Below are positions 2,184-16,500 of a stretch of DNA of 26,016 nt, piece by piece (the first letter of the stretch is position 1; each line of letters starts with the position of its first letter). This DNA is from a virus. The DNA lies in the IMG/VR virus record IMGVR_UViG_3300038441_000378, positions 1 through 26,016 of that record; one strand, written 5' to 3'. The position numbers and the translations under genes are program-made. The notes under the pieces were generated by a model that made no database searches, was not told the origin of the DNA, and saw nothing but the letters and a program-made list of their open reading frames with translations.

Positions 2184-2724
2184 ACAAGAACAGGAAGAAC
2201 GCCTGAAGGCCATGGGCCTGACTGCGAAGCGCGTCACCCCGGAAATGCTGGACAGTATGATCAAGTCGAAAGACTTCGTCCTGCAACCCTGCAAGACGGT
2301 GATGATCTGTACCCTCACCCTGCACAATGGCTTCAAGCTGTTCGGTATCAACACCACTGTTGATCCGGCCAACTTCAAGCTGGAGCTGGCAGAAGAGTAT
2401 AGCTTCAACGATGCGCGCAATCAGCTGTGGCCGTATGCCGGCTTCCTATTGGCCGAAGACAGCTACCGCGGCAATGCGCCGCTGACCGAAGAACAGCGCA
2501 AGCTGCCGGACCACATCCAGCGTGTGATCATGGAATTCTTCCAGCTGAACGCTCGCCTGGCCGGCCTGTCCGCCTTCCTCAACCAGTTCGCCACCCTGGA
2601 CGAAGCTGCCGCCGCTGAAACCGGCGTATCGCCTGAAGAGATCCTGGATCTCAAGGCGCAGGAAGGCATCATGGTCAAGTACGCCGAAGTGCTGCGCCGC
2701 CGTCTCGAACGCGCCGGCGTTTAA
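2167..2724 (+). CDS. Phage protein of the N4 gp49 / Sf6 gene 66 family
   Basis: This 185-aa protein contains the pattern of the phage gp49/gp66 family: a strand with C-T-L-T-L-H-N-G-F (residues 48-56), D-P-A-N-F (66-70) and A-R-N-Q-L-W-P-Y-A-G-F-L-L (83-95). The family is widespread in podoviruses and its molecular role is unknown. The start is TTG at 2167, chosen because AAGGAG (2154-2159) lies 7 bases upstream and no better start exists. It overlaps the preceding gene by 17 bases. Relative to N4, where gp49 lies next to the virion polymerase gene, it is here separated from that gene by about 4.9 kb. The C-terminal half is helical and charged. Confidence 0.75.
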   Translation: MSLQTEQEQEERLKAMGLTAKRVTPEMLDSMIKSKDFVLQPCKTVMICTLTLHNGFKLFGINTTVDPANFKLELAEEYSFNDARNQLWPYAGFLLAEDSYRGNAPLTEEQRKLPDHIQRVIMEFFQLNARLAGLSAFLNQFATLDEAAAAETGVSPEEILDLKAQEGIMVKYAEVLRRRLERAGV

Positions 2725-2728
2725 GGCC

Positions 2729-3280
2729 TTGGCCATCCTCAACGTACTTGGGTTGGACCCAAGCCTACGCAACTGGGGGCTGGCCGCTGGGAAGCTGGAT
2801 ACGGAGACAGGCGAGGTGGATATCCGCCGCCTGGACGTATTCCGCATCCCTGAACCCACGGGCAAAAACATCAGGGCAAACTCGAAAGACCTGGCCATAG
2901 CCACCGGTCTCTTCAAGGCGGTCTATCCTTATATGAAGGCCGCGAACCTTTGTTTCGCTGAAGTGCCCTATGGCAGCAAGTCTGCCCGGGGCATGGTCTC
3001 ATATGCGGTATCCGTAGCCTTACTGGGGGCAGCGCGTGCACTCGACGCGCCGTTTCTGGAAGTGTCACCTCTGGAAGTCAAGTTGTGTTCCGTGGGTGTA
3101 AAGACAGCCACCAAAGCTGAAATGATCGAGTGGGCCATGACCAAATTCCCGAATGCCCCATGGCCGTATCACAACGGGAAACTGAACGCATCGTTGGCCG
3201 AACACATGGCCGACGCCTGCGCAGCGATTCACGCCGGGTTAAACACCCAAGTTTACCAACAACTCGCCGCTATGCGGTAA
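2729..3280 (+). CDS. RuvC-like Holliday junction resolvase / RNase H-fold nuclease
   Basis: This 183-aa protein begins with a beta strand ending in the catalytic-type motif GLDPSLRNWG (Asp10). It continues with a strand ending at Glu78 (CFAEVPYG) and has a C-terminal helix with E-H-M-A-D-A (Glu158, Asp162). This is the order and spacing of acidic residues in the RuvC-like RNase H superfamily, which cut branched DNA using two metal ions. It would resolve recombination or replication intermediates before packaging. The start must be TTG at 2729, because later Met codons would remove Asp10. No good Shine-Dalgarno is visible, and the upstream stop lies only 4 bases away, so coupled translation is likely. 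Nuclease activity is inferred from motifs. Confidence 0.75.
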   Translation: MAILNVLGLDPSLRNWGLAAGKLDTETGEVDIRRLDVFRIPEPTGKNIRANSKDLAIATGLFKAVYPYMKAANLCFAEVPYGSKSARGMVSYAVSVALLGAARALDAPFLEVSPLEVKLCSVGVKTATKAEMIEWAMTKFPNAPWPYHNGKLNASLAEHMADACAAIHAGLNTQVYQQLAAMR

Positions 3281-3294
3281 AGGAGCAACAACAC

Positions 3295-3699
3295 ATGAAA
3301 CTGACTCTGGGCCACGACGACATCATCGCCGGTATCTGCATGCTGCTGGAATCCAAAGGCATGACCGCCTTCTCCCCGGAAGTGGTCGAAGCCAAGTTCA
3401 CCCAGTCGCGTAAAGAAGGCACCCTGTCCGTCGAGCTGGACACCAACCCGGCGCCGAAGACCGAAGACGCGCCCAAGGCCCCGGTAGCTGAAACCAAGCC
3501 CGAAGCTGCCGCACAACAGTCGGCCACCAAGGACGGCGAGCAAGCCGCAGCTGAAGCCAAGCCGAACGGCGAGACCCAGGCGGAAGTGGAAAAGGCCGCC
3601 GAGCCTGCGCCTGAAGTGCAGACCGAAGCCCCAGCCACTGCCGCCGCAACCACCGAAGCCGCGGCCGCCGGCGGCGACGACGACAACCTGTTCGGCTAA
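3295..3699 (+). CDS. Acidic Ala/Glu/Pro-rich protein with SSB-like C-terminal tip
   Basis: This 134-aa protein has an ordered-looking N-terminus of about 50 residues (starting MKLTLGHDDIIAGICMLLESKG), followed by about 75 residues of low-complexity Ala, Glu, Pro, Thr and Lys. It ends in GGDDDNLFG, nearly the same tip as the SSB of this phage. The ATG at 3295 has AAAGGAG 9 bases upstream. The longer upstream ORF in this frame lies inside the nuclease gene and is not used. The tail suggests it may bind the same partners as the SSB, or mimic it. No family is recognised and the function is unknown. Confidence 0.65.
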   Translation: MKLTLGHDDIIAGICMLLESKGMTAFSPEVVEAKFTQSRKEGTLSVELDTNPAPKTEDAPKAPVAETKPEAAAQQSATKDGEQAAAEAKPNGETQAEVEKAAEPAPEVQTEAPATAAATTEAAAAGGDDDNLFG

Positions 3700-3709
3700 G
3701 GCGTAAACC

Positions 3710-4162
3710 ATGGACCGCAACAAGAAGCAGCATTGGTTCCTGTTGTCGTTCATGGTGCCTGTACCTGGTTCGTGGCAGCCGGCCAGCCTCACGGTTGGCC
3801 GGCCGACCAAGGTAATGCAAAGCGTCGCGATGGAAGCTGCCCGGGACCAGCACGGTTTCCCGGCCAGCACCATCGTTACAGGCGTAAGCTACCTGGGTTA
3901 CGCCAGTGCCCACCAGATGCAAGGCACCAGCGACGAACAGCTGCTGACCAAGGTCAGTGAAGAGTTCCGTCAGGGCATGCGTGCCGCGGTACTCGGTCAA
4001 TCTGGCCAAACGGTCAGCAACCCCTATACAGGCGCCAGCGTGGAAAACGCGAACGTGAAAGCGCAGGAGTGGGATGCTGGTTTCCGTGAGGTAACCGGTG
4101 CGACTCGGGATATTGAAAGTCTCCAACAAGCTGCTGTAGACGAGTTCATCGAAGGGCAGTAA
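3710..4162 (+). CDS. Unknown protein with a ribosome-modulation-factor-like C-terminal segment
   Basis: The N-terminal half of this 150-aa protein (residues 1-75) is not recognised. Residues 85-128 follow the pattern of ribosome modulation factor (RMF): F-R-Q-G-M-R-A-A-x2-G-Q-S, then N-P-Y, then A-Q-E-W-D-A-G-F-R-E. In Escherichia coli RMF the comparable landmarks are G-Y-x-A-G-x2-G-R-S, C-P-Y, and S-Q-W-L-G-G-W-R-E. RMF binds 30S subunits and drives 100S dimer formation. A phage copy could affect host translation, or the motif may be reused in a phage protein. The ATG at 3710 has a weak AAGG site. This is the last gene before a long gene-free region. Confidence 0.6.
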   Translation: MDRNKKQHWFLLSFMVPVPGSWQPASLTVGRPTKVMQSVAMEAARDQHGFPASTIVTGVSYLGYASAHQMQGTSDEQLLTKVSEEFRQGMRAAVLGQSGQTVSNPYTGASVENANVKAQEWDAGFREVTGATRDIESLQQAAVDEFIEGQ

Positions 4163-4253
4163 TCACCCCGTGGAGCCAACCACGTAAATAAACCCGACTA
4201 CCTCCTACTTACTGGCTTAGCGTCCGCAAAGCGGCAGCATCCTGCAGTAGAGG

Positions 4254-4347
4254 CAGTATCGGTAGTTGCACTGTCTATTAAGGCTAACCGGGAGCACGGA
4301 TAGCCCCGATGTAGCGCAGTTAGCGGTCAGTGCAACTACCGATACTG
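4254..4347. repeat. 20-bp perfect inverted repeat
   Basis: 4254-4273 is the exact reverse complement of 4328-4347. The 54-base spacer contains its own hairpin (4282-4305). A perfect repeat of this length outside a gene points to a strong RNA stem within region A; a protein-binding palindrome is less likely with such a long spacer. Confidence 0.9.
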
Positions 4348-4562
4348 GTTGGATGGCCCAAAGGCCACGGGTAAGCGTTGTTTAATCGCCCTGGGAAGAC
4401 CACTTCACGGAATGGTGTAGATGTTAGTACCAAGGCAGCAAACTGCTGTCTGAAACCCAGCTATCCCCGCAGTAAAGCGGTGCTAATTAAACTTGAGTGG
4501 ATATTGTGTTCACTGGTGGGGCCACTCGAAAATAAACCCCCTAAGAGACCAATTGTTGTATG

Positions 4563-4660
4563 TCTCAAACCAGGATTCGAACCTGGCATAGTGGTAAGAG
4601 GCAAAACCTCGGATTGTTGCTGCTGGAAAACTCTACAAAGAATTACTAAAGACTTTGAGG
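4563..4660 (-). other. tRNA-like T-arm and acceptor-like stem (non-canonical)
   Basis: Read on the minus strand, CCAGG, the T-loop TTCGAAT and CCTGG form a perfect T-arm (4586-4570). It is followed without a gap by TTTGAG, which pairs with CTCAAA at 4659-4654 as an acceptor stem would. No convincing anticodon arm lies between them, and the total of about 98 bases is long for a tRNA. Because the element is nearly palindromic it can also fold on the plus strand as part of RNA A. Confidence 0.35.
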
Positions 4661-4760
4661 CCCAACGCGGGATAACCAAGCGCTGCTTCGTGCGCCCCTC
4701 AAACCTTAATTGCCGCTTTAACCGCACTACGGCAATATAAATAATCAGTGTGGCGGTCAA

Positions 4761-4778
4761 GGGTGTATCTAGACACCC
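4761..4778 (+). promoter_or_regulatory. Hairpin in the leader of the membrane/SPFH cassette
   Basis: GGGTGT (4761-4766) and ACACCC (4773-4778) form a 6-bp stem with loop ATCTAG. It ends 12 bases before the ribosome-binding GGGAG (4791-4795) of the next gene. It could protect the 5' end of a processed message or separate RNA A from the coding message; its role is inferred. Confidence 0.45.
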
Positions 4779-4801
4779 AACCTATTAACAGGGAGTGCTA
4801 C

Positions 4802-5053
4802 ATGCGTAAACAAGGTATGAACCCCCACAAGATCGTAGCTTGGTCGATTCTGTTGTTTATCTACGGATTTGCAACTGCCGCCCTGCTCGGTTCCGCAGTA
4901 CCGCAGTTGTTGTCTGCTGACGACACTTCGATGGTAATTGCGGGTGTGTGCGCAGTCTTCTTTTGGGGACTGGTCACTTATTACATGGGGGCGATGATTC
5001 ACAAAGCCCGAAACAAAACCAACACAAGGAAACGTCGCAATGCGCGTTCGTAA
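4802..5053 (+). CDS. Small two-helix membrane protein
   Basis: This 83-aa protein has two predicted membrane helices (residues 11-36 and 43-66) joined by a short loop with Asp residues. The C-terminal tail is strongly basic (residues 67-83), giving an expected N-in/C-in topology. The ATG at 4802 was chosen over an upstream GTG at 4748 because GGGAG (4791-4795) lies 6 bases before it. The last 14 bases overlap the SPFH lipoprotein gene, so the two are probably co-translated and may work together at the inner membrane. The shape is compatible with a small holin or a superinfection/membrane factor, but holin genes of N4-like phages usually lie elsewhere, so no function is assigned. Confidence 0.65.
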   Translation: MRKQGMNPHKIVAWSILLFIYGFATAALLGSAVPQLLSADDTSMVIAGVCAVFFWGLVTYYMGAMIHKARNKTNTRKRRNARS

Positions 5054-5882
5054 CATTCTTGGTGCACTGGCCGTCGGCCTCGCGTGCATCGCTGCAACCG
5101 GCTGCATGCCACAGAAAGTGTCGCCAGGTGAGGTTGGCGTACTGGTTTCTACCGTAGGTAGCGACAAGGGCGTCCAGATGAAGCCGGCCAAATCGGGCTG
5201 GAATATCGTCGGGTTCACCGAGAACCTGTACACCTTCAAGACCTTCGACCAGAATAAAGACCTGGGCAAGGTTTCGTTCAGTGACGCCGACGGCGCCCGC
5301 CTGACCGCCACCATCGGTGTGACGGCCTACGCGGAGCAAGACGCAGCACCGAAGCTGTTCCTCAAGTACCGCAAGGACTTGGACGGCATCATCGAAACCA
5401 ACATGGTCCAAGTGCTGAAGACGGCCTTCGCCAATGAAGCCAGTAAAGTGAAAGTGGACGCGATCTACGGCGCCGGCCAGGAAGAATTCCTGACGCGGGT
5501 GCGCGAGCGTGTACATGCCCACTTTGCCGAGCACGGCCTGATCCTGACCAACCTCTACCTGCTGGATTCGCTGGAGCTGCCGGATACGGTACGCGAACAG
5601 CTGAACAAGAAGGTGGAAGCCAACCAGATCACCGACCGTCTGAAGAACGAAGAAGCGCAGGCCGTAGCCATCGCAGCCAAGCAACGTGCTGAAGCTGAAG
5701 GTGACAAAGCCGCCGCTATCCTGCGTGCTGAAGGCCAGGCCCAGGCCATCGAAACCATCGGTGAAGCCATGCGCCGCAACCCCCAGTACATCGAACTGAA
5801 GAAGGTCGAAACCTGGAAGGGTGATGTGCCGACCACACTGGTCACTGACGGTGGCGCGAATACGCTGCTGCCGTTGAAGTAA
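5040..5882 (+). CDS. SPFH (band 7/prohibitin-like) domain lipoprotein
   Basis: This 280-aa protein starts with a basic N-terminus, a hydrophobic segment (residues 6-19) and A-A-T-G-C22, a near-standard lipobox, so Cys22 is the likely lipidated residue. Residues ~27-185 follow the SPFH pattern: V-S-P-G-E-V-G-V-L-V, a beta-rich middle, then V-R-E-R-V-H and a strand leading to L-E-L-P-D-T-V-R. Residues ~187-245 form a long Ala/Glu/Gln-rich coiled coil, as in HflC, prohibitin and stomatin. Such proteins assemble in membrane rings that control proteases or membrane domains. AAGGAA lies 8 bases before the ATG at 5040. The gene overlaps the small membrane protein gene by 14 bases and is flanked on both sides by candidate structured RNAs. 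Its phage role is unknown. Confidence 0.8.
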   Translation: MRVRNILGALAVGLACIAATGCMPQKVSPGEVGVLVSTVGSDKGVQMKPAKSGWNIVGFTENLYTFKTFDQNKDLGKVSFSDADGARLTATIGVTAYAEQDAAPKLFLKYRKDLDGIIETNMVQVLKTAFANEASKVKVDAIYGAGQEEFLTRVRERVHAHFAEHGLILTNLYLLDSLELPDTVREQLNKKVEANQITDRLKNEEAQAVAIAAKQRAEAEGDKAAAILRAEGQAQAIETIGEAMRRNPQYIELKKVETWKGDVPTTLVTDGGANTLLPLK

Positions 5883-6793
5883 TCCTGTCCCCGGATACAG
5901 GGGAAGTTCACCGCCTGCACTTAAAGGGCGTATGTCCGCCAGGTACATAAAAACCTGGAAACCATGTGAAAGGGAAATACCCAACGGCCATTAGCACGTG
6001 GACGCTCGAAGCGTGCACTGAGACCCCGTCAGGGATAACGATCTAATCACCGCCTTTGATCACGCCACATGGTAGTCGGGAGACTCGCAATAGTTCGACT
6101 ATAAGCCAACGGCGAGTAAGTTGAGACAACAACTAAAAACCCAATACACCGAAAGGTTGTATTGGACTGGAGATGACAAGCGTGCGTCAACACGCCCAGC
6201 TTTGACGGGCCGGTCGCCTGCAAGGGGTAGTGCAATACCCCCAATCAGTGGGTGGATCGTCTCCAGTCCAATGCAGCCTGAATAACTGCATTACCTAAAC
6301 CTAATATTAATCCTCTGTATTGTTAACTTTCTGTCGTAAGCAAGAAGACGCCAGAGGGACAGATTAGGAATAGGGGCAATGAAACAAGTATGACGAAAGT
6401 CTATGGCCGGCTGACGGCCACAATAGATGTGAGTTGCACGAAAGTGTTCTTTGAGAAACTAATGCCTAGTGCGTTAGCCTTTTCAGAATCAAGCAAGCAA
6501 TATGTCGCGCGAAAGCGTGTTAACCGGTTTCGCCGTAGTTGAAACTGGTTTGCGAAGTACAACAGAGAGATACAAGTCGCTGCGAAAGCTGCTCTTTCAC
6601 ATTAATAGCGGATCTGTGTGATTTGCATGTGAATCTGTGTAATGAAAGTGTTTGGAAACAGATGTAAGTCGGCAGGAGTGCCCCAGTTTACTGGTTACTC
6701 TGGCAAGTCAACTCGTGGTCCCAATAATTGAGCGCTTGGCGGTGCACAAACCATAGAGTTGATTTGACCTGAATAACTAGGAGTGTACGTTAC
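5883..6793 (+). ncRNA. Candidate large structured non-coding RNA B (gene-free region)
   Basis: No credible gene lies in 911 bases, yet paired segments occur nearly throughout. They include: 5884-5888/5897-5901; 5954-5958 with 5939-5943; 5962-5968/5995-6001 enclosing GGG/CCC; 6002-6014; 6083-6088/6112-6117 enclosing 6090-6102; GNRA hairpin 6141-6165; long-range stem 6154-6176 with 6257-6279; possible pseudoknot 6180-6207; 6224-6241; 6270-6292; nested CCTAAT/ATTAGG (6300-6305, 6363-6368) and CCTCTG/CAGAGG (6312-6317, 6352-6357); GAC-GAAA-GTC at 6392-6401; CTAT-GGCC/GGCC-ATAG (6401-6426); 6459-6477; 6522-6531/6541-6550; and 6704-6714/6756-6766. Size and style resemble large phage RNAs such as GOLLD, but no family could be matched by eye. 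It could also be two or more RNAs: the hairpin at 6459-6477 is followed by CCTTTT and might be a terminator. Confidence 0.55.
6154..6279. repeat. 23-bp near-perfect inverted repeat
   Basis: 6154-6176 pairs with 6257-6279 over 23 positions, all Watson-Crick except three G-U pairs when read as RNA. The central part (6161-6176 with 6257-6272) has 15 Watson-Crick pairs and one G-U. It is the backbone of region B. Confidence 0.85.
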
Positions 6794-7240
6794 ATGAATA
6801 ACGAAAAAGCGAACCTGATTGCAACGCTGGCCCACGCGGCCAACAACCTGCGTAACGTGACCAACGCCGACGCGGCCACCAATGCAATCTTGGCCAGTAT
6901 CGTAGACCTGGCCCGCCCGGGTGACCGGGTGCAAGGTGAAGTCGGGGCTAACGAACATCAGGAATGCGGCGAGGAATACGCGAACGAGCGTGAACCCACC
7001 AAGCTGGAACTGATCACCGAAGCGCTGCGTGCTGAATATCCACCGTGCCACTGCGGCGAATGCCCGGCAGTGCATGTGCTGGTGCAAGCGGAAGCTCCGG
7101 TGACCCCGGCAGACGCCATCAGCAAAGAGCGTGCCGAAAGCCTAGGCAAGATCATCACCAAACCAGGTGCTGACCACGTATTCGTGGCCCGCGCCAAGGA
7201 ACTGCTGGCGGCCGCCGGTTATGCGATCGTCACCCTGTAA
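6794..7240 (+). CDS. Unknown small protein with a possible zinc site
   Basis: This 148-aa protein is not recognised. The N-terminus is helical (residues 4-40). A Cys/His cluster, Cys85-His86-Cys87-x2-Cys90-x3-His94, plus Cys58, could bind zinc. The C-terminal ~45 residues are helical (A-D-A-I-S-K-E-R-A-E-S-L-G-K). The ATG at 6794 has AGGAG (6779-6783) with a long 10-base spacer. The gene starts just 28 bases after the last hairpin of region B, so the RNA may form part of its leader. Its stop overlaps the next start by one base. Function is unknown. Confidence 0.6.
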   Translation: MNNEKANLIATLAHAANNLRNVTNADAATNAILASIVDLARPGDRVQGEVGANEHQECGEEYANEREPTKLELITEALRAEYPPCHCGECPAVHVLVQAEAPVTPADAISKERAESLGKIITKPGADHVFVARAKELLAAAGYAIVTL

Positions 7241-7455
7241 TGCGGGCGCTGCTCAAGACCTTCTTGGGCATCTGCGTCTTCTTCGCAGCGGGGCTGTCCA
7301 TAATCGCGATGTTTATCGCCTTTGGATTCCTACTGCGAATAATTGGCGTGATTATCGCCATAGTGGGCGTAGTTGGCCTGATAGGCGTGTTCCTGTGGTT
7401 CTGCATTGAAGAACTGATCATTCAGCCGCTTCAGAAACGCCGAAAGCCCCGTTAG
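7240..7455 (+). CDS. Small hydrophobic two-helix membrane protein
   Basis: This 71-aa protein is almost entirely hydrophobic, with two helices (about residues 8-32 and 34-56), followed by an amphipathic stretch and a basic tail K-R-R-K-P-R. The ATG at 7240 reuses the A of the previous TAA (TAATG), so expression depends on the upstream gene. It is the last rightward gene, and its TAG stop lies inside the bidirectional terminator. The size and two-helix form fit a holin or antiholin-type protein, but a holin role is not shown and the usual lysis genes are not in this window. Confidence 0.6.
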   Translation: MRALLKTFLGICVFFAAGLSIIAMFIAFGFLLRIIGVIIAIVGVVGLIGVFLWFCIEELIIQPLQKRRKPR

Positions 7456-7462
7456 GGGCTTT
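7443..7462. terminator. Bidirectional terminator between converging transcripts
   Basis: AAAGCCCC (7443-7450) pairs perfectly with GGGGCTTT (7455-7462), loop GTTA. The A-run on one side and T-run on the other allow termination in both directions. It contains the stop codon of the rightward membrane protein gene and ends 136 bases beyond the stop of the leftward polymerase gene. Confidence 0.75.
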
Positions 7463-7474
7463 CAACTTGTTACA

Positions 7475-7595
7475 AGCGGGGCAGGGAAAGGGCCTCTAGG
7501 GTATATATGCCCGAAGACGTTCCCTTGGCCAGACCTTATGCCTACATCGGTTCGTAGGCTTTAAGGCGGTGGTTCGAGTCCACCACCCCGCTCCT
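7475..7595 (+). ncRNA. tRNA-like element with enlarged D-side domain
   Basis: GCGGGG (7476-7481) pairs with CCCCGC (7586-7591); A7475-T7592 could add a pair. GGTGG (7568-7572), the loop TTCGAGT (7573-7579) and CCACC (7580-7584) form a perfect T-arm with the consensus GGTTCGAGTCC. After T7592 comes CCT, close to CCA. Between acceptor and T-arm are 85 bases: an arm closed by GGGAA/TTCCC (7484-7488, 7520-7524) that encloses GGGC/GCCC with a D-loop-like AGGGTA, and a long arm CCTTA-T-GCCTAC/GTAGGC-TT-TAAGG (7534-7566). This makes a cloverleaf-like fold of about 120 bases with no clear anticodon. It is a tRNA mimic or decayed tRNA, not a normal tRNA. Confidence 0.5.
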
Positions 7596-7598
7596 AGC

Positions 7599-10500
7599 TC
7601 ACTTCAGCAGGCTAAAGGCCGGCAGTTCGTCCAGAGCACCGAAGTAGCCCAACGCACCATCCTGCAGTGGGTTATTACCCAGCTTGTTCATCCAGTACGA
7701 ATCAGTAATGGAGTCCAAGCCAGACCAAGCATGGTTAGCTGCAACCAGAGCCAAACCACGTGCAGGCTTCTCACGAACCAAGCGCATGATGGTCTTCTGG
7801 ATACGCATGTAGTACTTGGTGAACATAACCAAGCCCATGTCGTTCAGGAACTGGATGTTCCGGTGCGACGGCAGGTCGTAGTTCACAAAGGACTCTTCAG
7901 CCTGTTTCAACGCATCAGCCTGACTCAGCGGGTCGCGAGCACGGGTCATGGTGTGTTCGTACATGGCATATCGCGCTACAAGGTCAGACAGCTGGGTAGC
8001 CTGGCTGAGGAACTTGTAGATGCCGGTATCGTGGGTCATGTAGACCTGTTTACCGACTTCACGCATCCAAGCAGGCACCTTATTGGTGTACTTCTGCACC
8101 TTGGTTTGCAGTCGCGACTTGTAGCTGTACTGCGAGTCGTCAGCTTCAACGTCCTCAACGATGGTCGGCATCAAGCCAGCATCAATGAGTGGTTTCAGCG
8201 GGTTACGCGCCAGACGGTCACGCAGCTCAACAATCTCGCCTTCAGCCACGCTGGAGTCGGCATAACCAATTTCTACAGCCTGTTGTAGTTGCAGCAGGCG
8301 TTTGTTGTCGCGGCGGTAGTCCACGGCAGCCTTCAGGCCGATTGCGTGTGCGGCGATAGCCTTGCGCACCGGTACACCTTCCCAAGCCAACAGAGTAAGG
8401 TTGGAAATCATGTTGCCCACCAGGGTAACGATGTTCTTCACCACCAGAATGTCCTTGGTCTCTTTTACCAGCTCTTGCATCACGTCTTCGGCCTTGCCGA
8501 TACGCAGTGCGGCTTTATCACCCAGGAAGTGCTCAGCAACCTGCACAAACAGTTTCTCTGCAAAGTTACGGTCACCCGGCAGCGCAGTAAACGGTTGAGT
8601 GAGGCTGTACTTGCGATAGCCCATGATCAGGTTCAACTGGTCGGCTGGGATACGCATGTTGTCGTCTTTCCACACGCGCTTGATTTCACGCTTGGTGGAT
8701 TCAGGCAACAGGGTGTAAAGCTCACGCAGTTCTGGATCGGTGCTGTCTTTACCCACTACCAAGTAGCTGGCCGGACGGTTCTTGAAGTCAGCGTCGTACT
8801 GGTCGCGCAGAGAGCGGACAACGTCAGCGTTCTGTGCAGCCGAGGACACTTTGTCCACGATCTGACCCGACAGCACACCCAAGACCTGTTCAACACTGTT
8901 GTCACGGTCCAGCAGCGCATCGCGGCTGGTTTCGGACATCATGTAGCGCCAGTCAGCGATTTGGCCGTTAGGTGCCAGCACTGGAACCATATTACCGCGC
9001 TTGGCTTTGCGAGGATCGTAAGCCAGGGAGCGTGCAAACAGTTCATGCTCAACAGCCGCTTTGGCAGCGTTGATCTGCGCCTTATGGGCAGCCGAAGTAA
9101 CCTGAGTGCCTTGCAGCACGTTCAGCGCTTCAGTAGACGGGCTCGAACCCTTGCGGCCCATACCGGTGTAGCTCATCGCACCGGTCAACAGACCAGCTTG
9201 CCCCGAACCGCGGCGAGTGACCAGGACACGGTTGTCACGTACACCAGACGCCGGGTCATGCTGCAGGTTGGTGCCCAGGACGTAGCCAGCGCGCTCGTAC
9301 TTGCCCAGGTCAGCCTTGTCCACCAGCATCACTTCGATATTGGTGTCAGTAATCTCAGGGACATACGCAGATGCCTGCATAGTCTCTTGACCCTTGAACA
9401 GCAGCTCCCCGGACTTCTTCTGCAAGCCAGAATGCAGCTTGAGGATGAAATCTACCCCGTTCTGCGCACCACGATTCGATTCGGTGCGGAACACTTCCAT
9501 GGCCAGCTTCTTGTCAGCAGTACCGGTGTATTCCAGTGCGTAGACTGCGAGAAGCTGGTCTAAAAGCGGCTTAACAACCGCCGCTTGCTGGGCTTGGCCT
9601 ACTTTGGCAGTACCAGTCAAGTTGGCAATGTTCAGCGTGTTCAGCATCAGCTTAGAGCTGGTCGAACCACCTACAACTTTGTGATGGGCCAGGTCCTTGG
9701 TCTGGCTGATCATGTACAGCGCTTCAGGCTCCGCGGCGATTACCTGAGCTTCCAAGTCACGGCGGTGTGCTGCCATCTTGGCCGGGTCTTCCATCAACTC
9801 TTTCAGGCCAGCAGTACCCAGTACATCAGCAATGGCAGCAGCGTTGGTACGCAGGAATACACGAGTAAGCGCAGCACGATGTTGTGGCTCCAGGTTGGCG
9901 CCGCCATCAGCGAATGCTTCGTTGACTTGGGCAACGGTGTACTCAATGTGGTGCTTACGCTCCTGCTCGTTCTTCTTGGCTTCCTTGAAGAGAGCAGTGG
10001 CCACGATGTTGCCGTCATGGGAGCCGCGCATCTCGCTGACGATACCCATGATGGTGCCGTGCTTCGACTTCAGCGCAGCGTCACGCACCTTGGTCATGTG
10101 GTCCAGGACCTGGGTCACACGGTCAGCGGCCAGGGTCGACGCAGCCACGCCCACGAACTTCACCAGAGGCGAAGACGACTGTCGGAAGAAGTTGGACTGA
10201 CCCAGGGCATCGATAGTCTCGCGTGCGCGGGTGCCTACGGCGCCCAGTGCAATCTCCACAGAATCCAGACCATTGACCTTCTGCTTGGCCAGGCGGTCTT
10301 TGCGCTTGGCTTCAATATCCACCAGCTGATCTAGCAGGGTGGCCAGCGCAGTGTTGGCCATGTCACCGGCACGCACCTTGGTGTGCAGCGAAGCCAGTAC
10401 AGTCATGGCTCGGCGGAACAGTTCCATGATTGCGCCACCCCACGACAGGGTCTTCAGCGGCACAGTGGCGTCTGGTGTGGCGAAGTTCAGCACGTTGTTG

Positions 10501-13500
10501 ACTTCGTTCGAAGCCAGGCCCAGTGCAGCGAAGCGAGCCAGGTACTCATTCTTGCCACCGGCGTTTTGACGCGCCTTGAACAGGAATTCGTACTTGGCTT
10601 CAGCCAGCTTTTGCTCGGCATCCGTCGCAGTGTTCCAGTCACCGTTGTGGAAGTTACGCGGCTTCAGTTCGGCGCGGGCTTGGGCGTACAGCTTGCCCAG
10701 GGCATCACGGACGAACAGGGTGGCCGGGTTTTCCATGGCGTGCAGTACCGAGGCTTCCACCGATTCCAGTACATAGGCCTCTTGGGCGTTCAGTACGAAT
10801 TCGTGGGTCAAGGCCTGGCTACCAAACGGACGCTTACCGGTGTCCAGTGCCTTGAGGTACACATCCATTGGGGTGCTGGCTTTGTTGGCCGCAGCGTCCG
10901 CCTTGAATGCGCCGTATGGGCCGTACAGTGGCTCGACCAGGTCAGCCATGATGCTGCGCATGAACTCTTGGTGAGCGGCCGGCGATTGGCGCTTAGACAG
11001 GGCAGCCAATCCATCGAACACCTGGGCCGCAGTCATAGCGTTGACATGGTTTACCGCGTCTTCGTAGCGCAGGGTCAGGTTGTCACGGGTGGTCTTGGTC
11101 TCAGCAGCAGCCTTGAACAAGTACGCACCGCTGGCAACCAGCTGACCCATAGCCGACGCTTCGTTCACGCGGCCACCAAACAGCATGGCGGTCAGCGACT
11201 GGATGAAGTCACGCAGGCCCGACAGCATGCCTTTGGCACGCGCAGGTAAGGTGATGGCAGCCAACACTTCCCTTTGGAAGTCTTGGTTGGTCAGGCCCCA
11301 AGCCAGCAACTCATGGACATTGCCCGTGGCATTGGCGTACTTGGCCGACAGCGGACCGTTGTTGCCGATGAACTCAGCAGCCTTAGTGCGCAGTTCTTCC
11401 AGGCGCGCTACTTCACGACCAACCTGAGTGTTGGTGCCAGTATGTTGCTCAACCAGCTGGGCCAGTGCAGCGTGTACCAGTTCGTGGGTCAGCATCTCAG
11501 TAGTGATACCCGACTCAACAAAGTCAGGGGACTTCACGTAGATGGCTTCACGATTGCCCTGTTGGGCGTACCAGCCACGGGACTTGTCCACGCCAGCGCC
11601 CAGCACACCGTCAACCGGGGTAGTTGGGGTCACGTAAACCACTGGCATGTTACGCAGCGAGCGCGAAGCCATGGCCAGTACCTTCTTGGTGAACGGGTCC
11701 TGTGCGTACTCGCCAACAGCCTGGGCCAGCTGCCCAGCAGTCATTTCGGTACCGGCCAGCAGGTCTACCAGGTTCTGGTCGCTATCAACGACTGGACGGC
11801 CCAACTCACCCCACACGTTGGCGGTAGCGGTGACGTTGTTCACAGCTTCGATGATATCGGCAGCTTCAGCAGCAGGCACGGTACCCAGCGCTTCGTGTAG
11901 GGTTTTGTTCTGCTCCAGCGCAGCACGCACCGCAGGATTTTCCACCTTGGCTTTGTCCAAGGCATTCAAGCTGGTGGCTGGCTGCAAAGTGGTCACCGAC
12001 TGCGACGACAGCTGCTTGAAGGTGCTCGGTTGTAGGTCGGCAGGTGCAGCCTTGGCGGCTTCGTCCAGCGACTCGGCGATCAACACAGCATCTTCGGACA
12101 GCGTCGAACCAACCTTGGCCAGGGCATCACGTGCAGCGGCGCGGTCAGCGTCGGTCACGATGTACGAACCACCTTCGGTAGCGTACTGGCCAACGGCCCG
12201 CATGGAAGCCAGGTAGTTAAGCTTGTCGGTATCTGCCTGTTCAGCCACATGACGGATCGACAGCAGCTGCTCGGTGAAGTTGCCGCGCTTCTTGTCGCCG
12301 CGCTGGGCCATGACTTCGGCCAGCAGTGGCTGAATGCGCGCAGCCAGTTCAGGGTCAGCCATCAGACGGCCCATACCTAGCAGTACGTGGTCCAACATCT
12401 CGGCCATGGCGGTCGGGGCGCTGTAATCCAGCATGGTCTGGTAGGTGGCCTGGTTCAGGTTCTGGCCAACAGTAGCAACGTCATTCAGGTCCACGCCCAG
12501 GGCGTCGTGCACGTTCAACGCCTCCATCTTGCCGTAGACCGACGAGGCGATCATCGAGTCGGAGCTGTGGATGCTGGTAATGAACGGCATTACACCAGGG
12601 TCGACGTTCTGACGGCGCAGGCCGCTGTTCTTGGTCGAACCGGGGAACTGGTACTCACCGTTGCGCAGGCGTACTTGTACTGGCTTGCCAGACAGGTCAA
12701 AGGTCGGCACCGGCACGCCGAAGGTAATGTCGGACTGGTATGGCTGGCTGGAATCCAGCGAGCGCACCGACTTCGACATGTGCATGCCGGCCGACGGCTG
12801 ATTGCTAGCCTTGGACAGTGCAGTTTGCAGCACAGGTTCCATGTCACCCAGGATGCGCTTGACTTCAGCCTGCTGGGCCTTGGTCAGTGCACGCAGTGGG
12901 CGCATTTCGCCGTCTTGCTTACGGCGCGGTACGTCGGGGCTGTTGTCCATGACATAGGCAGTCACAGCACGTTCAGCAGCGTCGTACAGGCTCCAAGCCA
13001 GTTGAGCAGTCTGGTTAATGGTGTCACGGCGCGCCAGGAAGGTAGCGTAGGTATCACCCAGCGCATCTTCGGTCGGCTTGCCGATCAGATCATAGAAGGT
13101 GTCTTTGATGGCACGCTTCTGTTGCTCGGTCAGTTTGGTGTTCAGTGCCAGGTCGTAACCCAGGTTCACGTTCAGTTTCGGCGCCTTGTTGCGCATCAGG
13201 GTATTTACAGCACCCAGCAGCTGTTTCATGCCGGCTTCGTCACGGTTGCCAGCGTAGTCTTCCATCGAGCTGTAGATAGTCTCGATGAAACCATCAGCCA
13301 TGCCTTGTACCGCGGTCTTGGTGTTCGAACCGAACATCATGGCGGTCAGTGGCTGCTTGATGATCTTACGGCCTTTAGAGGTCACACGGCCGTCGTCATT
13401 CTGCAGTTTGCCAGTGATCAGCTGCAGTGCATCCATCAGCTGTACCTGCGAGCTGCCCAGGCGCTTCAGGGTCTCGGCAATGGTGCCTTCATAGAGGTCC

Positions 13501-16500
13501 AGGTTGCCCAGGCCCTTGTAATCGTTGAACTGGGTGAATTCCTGCTCCAGGGAGAAGAAACCACCTTGGTTCAGGGTGTCCCAGCCTTTGGCACCCAGCA
13601 TCAGCAACGAAAGCATCGGGCCGTTGGTAAGACCGTCTACTTCACCCATCAGTTCGGTGTCGAAGGTAGTTGCGCCGTTGCGCACGGCGTTGTGCTGGTG
13701 TGCCAGCGCTACCAGTGCGTCAAGACCGTGGAAGTTGTTACCGGTGGCACGCACGCCGGCCAGGATCTTCTGTTCATTGGCCAGTGTGTCATTGGCTTCA
13801 CCACGCAGGATTTCAGCCAGCGCAGTTACAGCGTCTTGCACACCCGGGCGGTTGACCAGTTGGTCGTAGCCTTGCAGTACCAGATCAGTAGCCTTGGACT
13901 CGGTCTTCTCATCGAATGCCTCGATCACGCGCAGCTTGAAGTTGTCCAGCTGGGCTTTGTCGGTCATGTCGATGGTAGCGTTCCAGCCAGCCATCTTGAT
14001 CATGTGCCGGTGGACCTTGGAGGTCTGCGGGTTGATCACGTTGGCGGTCAGGCCTACACGCTGGGGCTTCCACACCGAGCGACCGAAGAACAGTTCTTGT
14101 TCCAGGCCATTAGTGCTTGGGTCGTTGACCATCTTGGTTACGAACACGCTGAAGTTGTCTACCTGCGCCTTCAGGCCATCATTCTTGGCCTCACGGGAAG
14201 CACGGTTCTCAACGTGGGTTGGCGTGTCGGTGCTATCGACAACACCAGCGATTTCGTAGAGGGCTTGCTGGGACAGGTTGCCCCACAGCTGGTACATGTC
14301 CTGACGGACTACATGTGCCTTTTTGCCTTCTTTTTCCAGGATCGAAGCCAGTACTTTAGGTACATCTTGGTTTGTCCGTTTGGCAGTCTGCTGCGTGAAC
14401 GGTACCGGGGTGTAGCTCGGCTCTACGCCGGACTCTTCGGTACCAAACAGCTTGGACAGCACAGACTGCGAGCCAGTAGAGGCCTCACGCACGAGTTGGA
14501 CAGGGCGTACAGCAACCCACTTACCGTCAACCTGCTCCGCCTTCACACGGATAAAGGTGTGTTGCAGTTTGGCATCAGGGGTGGCGCCGGTCTTCATCAG
14601 CGGTTGCAGCTGAGTGTCAGGCACCTGAATACGCTCGGCAATGCCGAGGGAAACCATGGCGTTGATAGCACGCTGGCCCAGGGAGCTTTCCAGACGAGCG
14701 ACTTCGCTCTCGGATGCTTGGGCATTGGCGCGCAGGCCCAGTGCTTGAACGATACGTTGCCCCAGTTGTGCGGCAATGAACGCTTCACGGGTACCAACCC
14801 GACCCAGCACGGCGTACTCAGTGTTGCTAATGTCCTCATCCAAATCGCGCATGAGGATGGCATTGATGGACTCGTCCGTATTGGTAACTTGTGTGGCCGA
14901 TTCGTTGGCCCAGGTGAACATGCTGTAAGAAGTAGCAGTCACGACGTTCTCGTCCAGAGAACCGTCGTCATTCACCAGATATTGCGCAAGGTCGACAAAA
15001 CGGAAGTCTTGGTTCTTGACCTTGAACTGTTCACGGATTTTCGAGTCCGCCCAAGTGTTGAACTTGAAGAAACGAGCCACCGCTGTTTTCTGCGGCTGGG
15101 ACAGCTCTTTGCGCTGGTCCAGGTACTCATATACCACAGATGGGTCGGTCTTAACCTTGGCAGCAAAGTCAGCGACTTTGACCAGGGGTTTTTGCGACGC
15201 ATCGGTATCTTTGCCCGGATTCTGTTCGAACAGCGCACCAACCAAGTTGAGCTGACGATAATTGTCCGCGGTCACTTCTTCTTGTGGCTTATTGCGGATA
15301 GCAGTCAGCTCACCGGTTTCGACTACCGGTTCTGCGACTGGCTCCACTACAGGGGCCACTTGTTCAACGTTGACTTGGCCCGACTGCGGCTGGGCTTCGA
15401 CAACAGGCGCTACCCCTGCTTGAGGTGCTTCTTGCACAACAGTAGGGGCCTGAACTACAGCTGCCGTGGCTTGGGCAGGCTTATAGCTCGGTGCAGCGTT
15501 TACCAGTGCAGTGAAAGCGTCTGCAACACGGGCCAGGTACTCGGCTTCAGAACTCACAGCGTCCCGGAGCTTGAAGGAGCGGCCGTCCACCACAATGCCA
15601 CCATCTACCTGTGCAGGTACTGGTGCCCACTGACCTTTCGCGTCCGGTGCCAAATAGACCGAATTACCGGTGCCTTTCACTTGCTCGTAAGCAGCGGTGA
15701 TTGCAGCGGCTTTGGACTGCCGGCTTGCGGCGAACTTGCTGATACCTTCGAGTTGCGAGCGGGCAGCAGCTTCGTTGCCTTGGGCCAGGGCCATGCGGAT
15801 AGCGTTACGGTACTGGGGTACCCCTTTGAACCCGTCACCACCGGTAGTGATGTCCGAGCGAACACCTTCAATGGTCTGCAGGTTATCAGCGGCTACTTGC
15901 GCTGCCTGGAAGGCCTTGAAGGCTGTACGTTGCTCAGGGCTCAGCGATTCCGACTCAGCCAGGGTCGAAGCCACCGCAGTGTCAACGGAGTTGGGGTTGA
16001 TCATGGTCAGGGTCAACAGGCGGTCAGCCTGATTGGTATCCCCGGCAGATGCTTGTTGAGCAATCGCAGCAACCTCATCAGCTTCCGGGCTGGCGGCTAC
16101 TTGGAACTGCTCGGCGGCAGCACGAACATCGACGAGCTTTTGACTTAGCTCGGCGTGGTATTCCTGCATACCTTGGATGGTTTCAGGAGTGAACTCGGCA
16201 GCACGTTCCAAGAAAGCGTCATAGCGTGCAATCTCTGCCTCATCGCCTTGATTGGCCACAAGGGCTTCACGACGGGCAGCTACGTCAGCTACTGCTTCTG
16301 GTTCGAACGTCTGGAGCATTACCTCCAGCTGAGACACTTCTTTCGCCAGGTCCTGCTGGATCTCATCAGACTTGGCCACGGCTTCCTGTACAGCCACTTC
16401 ATCGCCGCCTTTGATTGTCTCTTGCAGCGCTTGGACTGCACGGACAGGGTCATAGGTCGGGGATTCCATGTCAGACAGGGCAGTAACGTCGCCCGATTCG

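Follow-up and report, generated by a model that had tools for sequence, protein, structure and literature searches.

What is a stretch of 911 nt without a gene doing in the genome of a schitovirus? The question is raised by positions 5883-6793 of a viral contig from IMG/VR (record IMGVR_UViG_3300038441_000378), of which positions 1 to 26,016, hereafter the window, were analysed. A first-pass annotation, made from sequence alone, had read this gap as a candidate large structured phage RNA recalling GOLLD and ROOL. Few giant structured phage RNAs are known, GOLLD and ROOL among them, and their function is unexplained. The contig was assigned to the schitoviruses (N4-like). ORFs for a Sak4-like annealing protein, a single-strand binding protein, and a RuvC-like resolvase precede the region, and a virion RNA polymerase ORF of 3373 aa converges on it from the opposite strand, the end of that ORF sharing 68-69% identity with Littlefix and phCDa. 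The claim of a gene-free gap of about 0.9 kb held: the ORF before it stops at 5882, the one after it begins at 6794, and the ORF list contains no ORF longer than 65 aa in between. No promoter or terminator bounding the RNA was seen in the window.

Those of the structural elements proposed within the gap that were checked also held. The 23-bp stem (6154-6176 with 6257-6279) is 87% complementary and the 11-bp stem near the 3′ end (6704-6714 with 6756-6766) is 91% complementary, and the 10-bp hairpin at 6522-6550 is also part of the minimum free energy (MFE) fold. GNRA-looped hairpins were confirmed at 6078, 6151, 6395, 6440, and 6511; in total, the plus strand carries 10 such hairpins against 2.1 ± 1.4 in shuffled sequences (none of 300 shuffles reached 10), and the minus strand 1 against 1.0 expected. 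The MFE z-score of the gap is -6.25 on the plus strand and -2.8 on the minus strand; this score was nevertheless rejected as proof of a structured RNA, because two of three equal-length coding controls from the same window reached -4.0 and -4.5, and folding energy is thus only weak evidence. The signal is also uneven, with a z-score of -0.9 for the first 233 nt (5883-6115) and -5.4 for 6116-6793, and there is no demonstration that the 5′ quarter of the gap, from 5883 to about 6118 (the first ~235 nt), belongs to the RNA at all.

Evidence of another kind came from relatives, which were reached through the neighbouring virion RNA polymerase gene and not through the RNA itself: a blastn search of the window RNA against 50,697 phage records and plasmids gave no meaningful match. 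Noncoding loci of 0.9-1.6 kb lie at the same place in the phages Littlefix, 98PfluR60PP, and phCDa, and in about ten uncultured phages (Table 1); the IMG/VR contigs with such a locus are L023, L035-L040, L042, L050, L061, L084, and probably L046. The loci of the three named phages contain no annotated RNA, and Littlefix has a single doubtful 39-aa ORF there. A conserved ORF in relatives would have refuted the RNA reading, and none takes the place of the RNA. Counterparts of the fast-evolving ORF at 6794-7240 come after the RNA locus in relatives, and the window shares this syntenic position, the RNA lying ahead of both the fast-evolving ORF and the gene for the virion RNA polymerase. The proposal of a large structured phage RNA is therefore supported, by syntenic noncoding loci in related schitoviruses and by stems that covary, and there is little doubt that a structured RNA family exists. 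A further contig, 3300028596_000133, shows 0 differences in the 911 nt, so that it yields no covariation.

Table 1. Coordinates of the RNA blocks, their parts, and neighbouring genes in the window, with the corresponding loci and nearby elements of related phages.
Feature	Genome or contig	Position	Strand	Basis or remark
N4-like ORF	Window	3710-4162		Directly before RNA block 1; counterpart, by place, of the gene preceding the RNA in Littlefix and L016
RNA block 1, noncoding	Window	4163-4801	+	At the place of the Littlefix RNA, right behind ORF 3710-4162
A-type hairpin CGTGG-AGCCAA-CCACG, then AAACCCGA	Window	4169-4184	+	R2 match, sequence
Perfect 20-bp stem (4254-4273/4328-4347) around exchangeable M-beta module	Window	4254-4347	+	
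U domain: GAGAC-CAATTGTTGTAT-GTCTC hairpin, second hairpin, conserved GAAAACTCTACAAAG	Window	4536-4645	+	
Small membrane protein gene	Window	4802-5053	+	Between RNA blocks; phrog_1130, E 5e-9
SPFH-domain lipoprotein gene	Window	5040-5882	+	Between RNA blocks; phrog_200, E 1e-64
5′ part of gap, noncoding	Window	5883-6118	+	No excess structure; no similarity to relatives detected
RNA block 2, core of the finding	Window	6119-6793	+	A hairpin, s2:s3 covariation, E domain, R2 match
A hairpin AGTTG-AGACAA-CAACT, then AAACCC	Window	6119-6134	+	Motif scan, R2 match
Strand s1 (CCCAATACA)	Window	6140-6148	+	Partner of s2 in fold I
Strand s2 of 23-bp stem	Window	6154-6176, core 6158-6171	+	
Strand s3 of 23-bp stem	Window	6257-6279, core 6262-6275	+	
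Strand s4 (TGCATT)	Window	6287-6292	+	Partner of s3 in fold I
E domain, nested stems with TTGTTAACT...GTNGTAAGCA..GAAGAC	Window	6292-6439	+	Alignment to L023
Run of short hairpins, several GNRA-looped (6395, 6440, 6511), plus 10-bp hairpin 6522-6550	Window	6391-6551	+	
3′ terminal long stem (includes 6704-6714/6756-6766)	Window	6694-6778	+	Directly before ribosome-binding site
Fast-evolving downstream ORF	Window	6794-7240	+	Littlefix gp09 at blastp E 4e-4; other matches weak
RNA locus	Littlefix (L030)	5113-5996		884 nt
RNA locus	98PfluR60PP (L031)	8348-9250		903 nt
RNA locus	phCDa (L041)	2528-3539		1012 nt
RNA locus	L016			874 nt
tRNA-like element	Littlefix (L030)	7384-7596		
tRNA-like element	98PfluR60PP (L031)	~10600-10940		
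tRNA-like element	phCDa (L041)	~12620-12760		
tRNA-like element	L035 and L050			
~100-nt structured module	L016	10620-10710	-	
~100-nt structured module	Littlefix (L030)	~7262-7375		
~100-nt structured module	98PfluR60PP (L031)	~10610-10730		
~100-nt structured module	L023, L036, L038			

Within these loci, the part best conserved among relatives is the GH module, at the 3′ side. In an alignment made with MAFFT (A3; 11 sequences, window left out, one sequence shortened at the 3′ end by 5 nt for register), 97.5% of cells are paired and 17 of 26 pairs vary on both sides, with a covariation score of 0.539 against 0.247 ± 0.022 in shuffles and at most about 0.1 with the partner strand slid. The 23-bp stem singled out in the first-pass annotation, here termed s2:s3, withstands the same check across 13 distinct members including the window (96.7% of cells paired; 8 of 14 pairs two-sided; 0.582 versus 0.211), and the insert that it encloses varies from 53 to 224 nt by phage. 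The same sequences have a second set of partners: s2 can pair with an upstream strand, s1, and s3 with a downstream strand, s4. Taken together, s1:s2 and s3:s4 are 90.8% paired, with two-sided changes in 6 of 15 pairs (0.346 versus 0.150), and one position changes in all four strands together, which the Littlefix group has as G, C, G, C and the window as A, U, A, U; in Littlefix itself, s1 pairs only weakly. Relatives show the like at the 3′ end of the RNA, where strand s6 pairs either with s5, which is part of the GH module, or with s7 (s6:s7, 5 of 20 pairs two-sided; 0.260 versus 0.111).

By nearest-neighbour energies, the two folds of s1-s4 differ by only -2.6 to +4.7 kcal/mol in 13 of 14 members, the outlier being phCDa (+9.0 kcal/mol). 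Strand s1 resembles s3, and the near-balance of the folds is therefore partly built in; the informative part is the joint conservation of both pairings. Alignments A4, A5, and A9 were put by hand into pairing register, which biases them towards structure; slid controls score far lower, but A3 alone largely escapes this bias. With that reservation, the RNA contains mutually exclusive helices of similar energy, both pairings of which are conserved.

Whether the window belongs to this family was examined separately. The GH module (model R1) was not recognised in it: the best plausible match, at 5953-6037, scores 8.6 bits (E 0.14), as against 73-104 bits in relatives. Membership rests on the shared place and setting and on four further features. 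A hairpin with an AGACAA loop followed by AACCC, the A motif, is restricted, in 3.4 Mb of sequence summed over both strands, to the window, L016, L023, Littlefix, 98PfluR60PP, and copies of these, and arises in 2 of 20,000 shuffled versions of the window RNA; in the window, as in the family, it is followed by the competing helices s1-s4. A covariance model of the A-hairpin part (R2), built without the window, has two matches in it, one at 4169-4268 (29.1 bits, E 9e-5) and a weaker one at 6119-6176 (18.8 bits, E 0.014). The E domain aligns to that of L023 with a score of 66 against 26 ± 5 in shuffles, none of 500 reaching it, and the U domain of the family is present as well. Exact matches to the 16-mer CCAATACACCGAAAGG were set aside as due to chance, apart from that in the near-identical contig.

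The first R2 match and the U domain lie outside the gap, in a second noncoding block of like character at 4163-4801, and the claimed bounds of 5883-6793 are thus not those of the RNA locus. By blastn, block 1 resembles L046 (E 1e-11), L061 (6e-8), phCDa (8e-7), and L042 (8e-7). The module enclosed by its 20-bp stem carries GATGTAGCGCAG at 4308-4319, and 33 nt of it are 94% identical to the L042 module. The U domain aligns to L046 with a Smith-Waterman score of 104 against 18.7 ± 3.6 for shuffled sequence, and its stems covary (6 of 10 pairs two-sided; 0.600 versus 0.213). The RNA locus of the window is accordingly split into two blocks, 4163-4801 and 6119-6793 (perhaps from 5883), by two auxiliary genes, and the noncoding total of 1.55 kb is similar to that of L023 and L046. 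For the first of these genes, the ATG at 4802, which lies behind an AGGGAG ribosome-binding site, is preferable to the GTG at 4748; the second, encoding the SPFH lipoprotein, was found by tblastn in 341 phage records.

The 3′ stem at 6694-6778 is taken to be the counterpart of the s6:s7 stem of relatives; this homology is inferred from position only, and sequence homology was not shown. An exact 11-nt repeat, CCTGAATAACT, occurs at 6277-6287, in the s3-s4 loop, and again at 6768-6778, in the 3′ terminal stem, and might conceivably mark a long-range link. For 5883-6118, similarity tests found nothing in common with relatives apart from one 13-mer, GGAAACCATGTGA, at 5957-5969, which is shared with Littlefix and L016 (blastn E 0.008). 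Relative to the core, the 13-mer is on the 5′ side in the window and on the 3′ side in relatives, and IMG/VR contains the pattern GGAAACCATGTGARRKGG in only three contigs, all in the clade. Circular permutation, which this placement suggested, was dropped, R1 reaching only 8.6 bits there and the 5′ part being without other similarity.

The RNA appears to be confined to one clade of Pseudomonas-type schitoviruses. Searches with R1 found nothing convincing, and no GH module, in Litunavirus, LUZ7-like, and more distant schitoviruses, and the polymerase search of genome contigs turned up only four distant relatives. Matches to the E and H patterns outside the clade in IMG/VR were rejected, as they look like coding sequence matched by chance. 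L046, at 12871-14430 on the minus strand, belongs to a more distant schitovirus contig (polymerase 53% identical); its 1.56 kb of noncoding sequence holds the U domain plus two sets of s1-s2-s3-like competing repeats whose sequences are unrelated.

The sequences enclosed by s2:s3 are exchangeable. The position of at least two module classes varies between phages, being either inside this stem or in a separate one upstream of it: M-alpha lies inside in L035, L039, L050, and L061 and outside in L036, L037, L038, and L040, whilst M-beta lies inside in L037, L038, phCDa, and L084 and outside in L039 and L042. The variable modules precede the shared 3′ part of the RNA. The upstream modules of L036, L037, L038, and L040 have a closing stem of their own, in part followed by ACC, and genuine tRNAs lie near the locus in several phages.

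Two rival explanations draw on this exchange. The first holds that the transcript is a precursor, cut by tRNA-processing enzymes into several small RNAs, with release of separately closed modules of which some end in ACC and others resemble tRNAs, such that no single giant RNA exists. The separately closed modules with their partial ACC ends, the tRNAs and tRNA-like elements nearby, and the changing position of modules all favour it, and it cannot be dismissed. Against it, s2:s3, s5:s6, and s6:s7 span modules and covary, and therefore the core must stay together; moreover, no ACC-ended module was recognised in block 2 of the window. The second rival supposes a signal at the DNA level, serving replication, packaging, or recombination, with the s1-s4 repeats forming cruciforms or marking module recombination. 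In its favour, s1 and s3, and likewise s2 and s4, are repeats of each other, and modules are exchanged at these borders; G-U pairs in the covarying helices, the enrichment of GNRA hairpins on one strand only, and the stronger folding signal on that same strand nevertheless make it improbable.

Could the RNA instead be a known one? The covariance models proposed in the first-pass annotation (GOLLD, ROOL, HEARO, OLE, and introns) were run, and Rfam searches gave nothing relevant at gathering score over the window, nor at E up to 10 over 5800-6900 and 4150-4800, with these families included. GOLLD and ROOL models also found no match in eight loci of relatives (E up to 1-5). Group I and II introns had no model match in the window, where the flanking genes look complete, and neither the Rfam tRNA model nor ARAGORN matched the core RNA. 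GOLLD is a large phage RNA, often longer than 800 nt, found near tRNAs, with a better conserved 3′ part, a variable 5′ part, and unknown function, and it assembles into an RNA-only cage of 14 copies; ROOL is a large ornate phage RNA near tRNA islands, also of unknown function (PMC12286853). A strongly diverged GOLLD or ROOL would account for the size, the phage setting, the nearby tRNAs, and the conserved 3′ and variable 5′ parts (PMC12286853). It is nonetheless very unlikely, as neither model matched the window RNA at E up to 10 or relatives at E up to 1-5.

The likeness to GOLLD and ROOL is thus one of style and setting only, because no Rfam model matches. The new RNA differs from GOLLD in its conserved competing helices, its exchangeable plug-in modules, and its restriction to one schitovirus clade; from ROOL, whose large size, nearby tRNAs, and unknown function it shares, it differs in helices and hosts. 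With phage tRNA arrays it has in common the tRNAs and tRNA-like cloverleaves nearby and the modules that end in ACC after a closing stem, but the core RNA is not a tRNA. No description of such an RNA in schitoviruses was found in the open-access literature searched (subscription papers and most preprints were outside its scope), and competing helices combined with swappable modules are, to our knowledge, not reported from GOLLD or ROOL. The RNA is accordingly regarded as a new, previously undescribed family.

A further comparison is with attenuators and riboswitch expression platforms, in which one strand takes either of two conserved partners in an RNA upstream of a gene. The locus could be a very long cis-acting leader regulating the gene at 6794, its helices switching the ribosome-binding site or steering transcription. 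Mutually exclusive helices are typical of switches, the same fast-evolving ORF always follows, and an s6:s7 stem precedes it in 15 of 15 relatives, in most of them only a few tens of nt from the start. The leader explanation remains possible, but several points speak against it. The s1-s4 helices are 500 nt away from the start codon, the ribosome-binding site is left uncovered by s7, and no terminator or covered start site was found. The RNA is several times larger than such platforms, with modules swapped inside its stems, and a length of 0.9-1.6 kb, exchanged modules, and nearby tRNAs go far beyond the needs of a leader. In the window phage, furthermore, two genes lie inside the locus.

The preferred explanation is a free-standing, scaffold-like RNA of a new family that folds by strand exchange. 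The locus would encode a modular RNA of ~0.7 to 1.6 kb on the coding strand of the block of replication genes, directly ahead of the 3′ end of the convergently oriented gene for the virion RNA polymerase. Each strand would have two partners (s2 with s1 or s3; s3 with s2 or s4; in relatives, s6 with s5 or s7), and re-pairing may follow the order of transcription, s1:s2 forming first and s3 then displacing s1, and so on. Alternatively, re-pairing may take place between copies of the RNA during assembly. The predicted outcome is a free-standing RNA in a scaffold-like particle, as for GOLLD and ROOL. As a whole, this reading could as easily prove wrong as right; transcription as a separate RNA, folding path, assembly, and a role in infection are all inferred. 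There are no expression data for any member, no bounding promoter or terminator is apparent, and the locus always stands before the same gene, as a leader would; the two genes that split it in the window are also odd for one continuous RNA.

A bolder version of the scaffold reading, which is no more than a possibility, sees plug-in modules mounted on strand-exchange helices that evolution has kept balanced, such that copies may fold alone or link into an RNA-only assembly, with the tRNA-like elements as processing marks or cargo. If true, giant phage RNAs that form cages or scaffolds would have a third, unrelated origin. Several phages of the family, namely Littlefix, 98PfluR60PP, and phCDa, are in culture on Pseudomonas fluorescens-type hosts; with competing helices and swappable modules at hand, deletion, helix-swap, and assembly experiments are therefore feasible, and the role of giant phage RNAs becomes testable within a short infection cycle.

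Several further elements were observed around the locus. In the window, a tRNA-like cloverleaf at 7475-7592 on the plus strand, undetected by ARAGORN and by the Rfam tRNA model, has a 7-bp acceptor stem and a T arm reading GGTGG-TTCGAGT-CCACC; an outsized arm replaces its D arm, and a second arm is unusual. A conserved structured module of ~100 nt (GGCTGATGAGG...CCGCAGCRTTT...GGGGCC), without a match in Rfam, is situated close to the polymerase gene or within the RNA locus. L035 carries a possible group I intron at 11731-12477 on the minus strand (41.6 bits, short of a gathering score set at 50). Littlefix, 98PfluR60PP, phCDa, and relatives have tRNA-like elements with a normal T arm and an altered or enlarged anticodon region, one of which is short in Littlefix and long in 98PfluR60PP.
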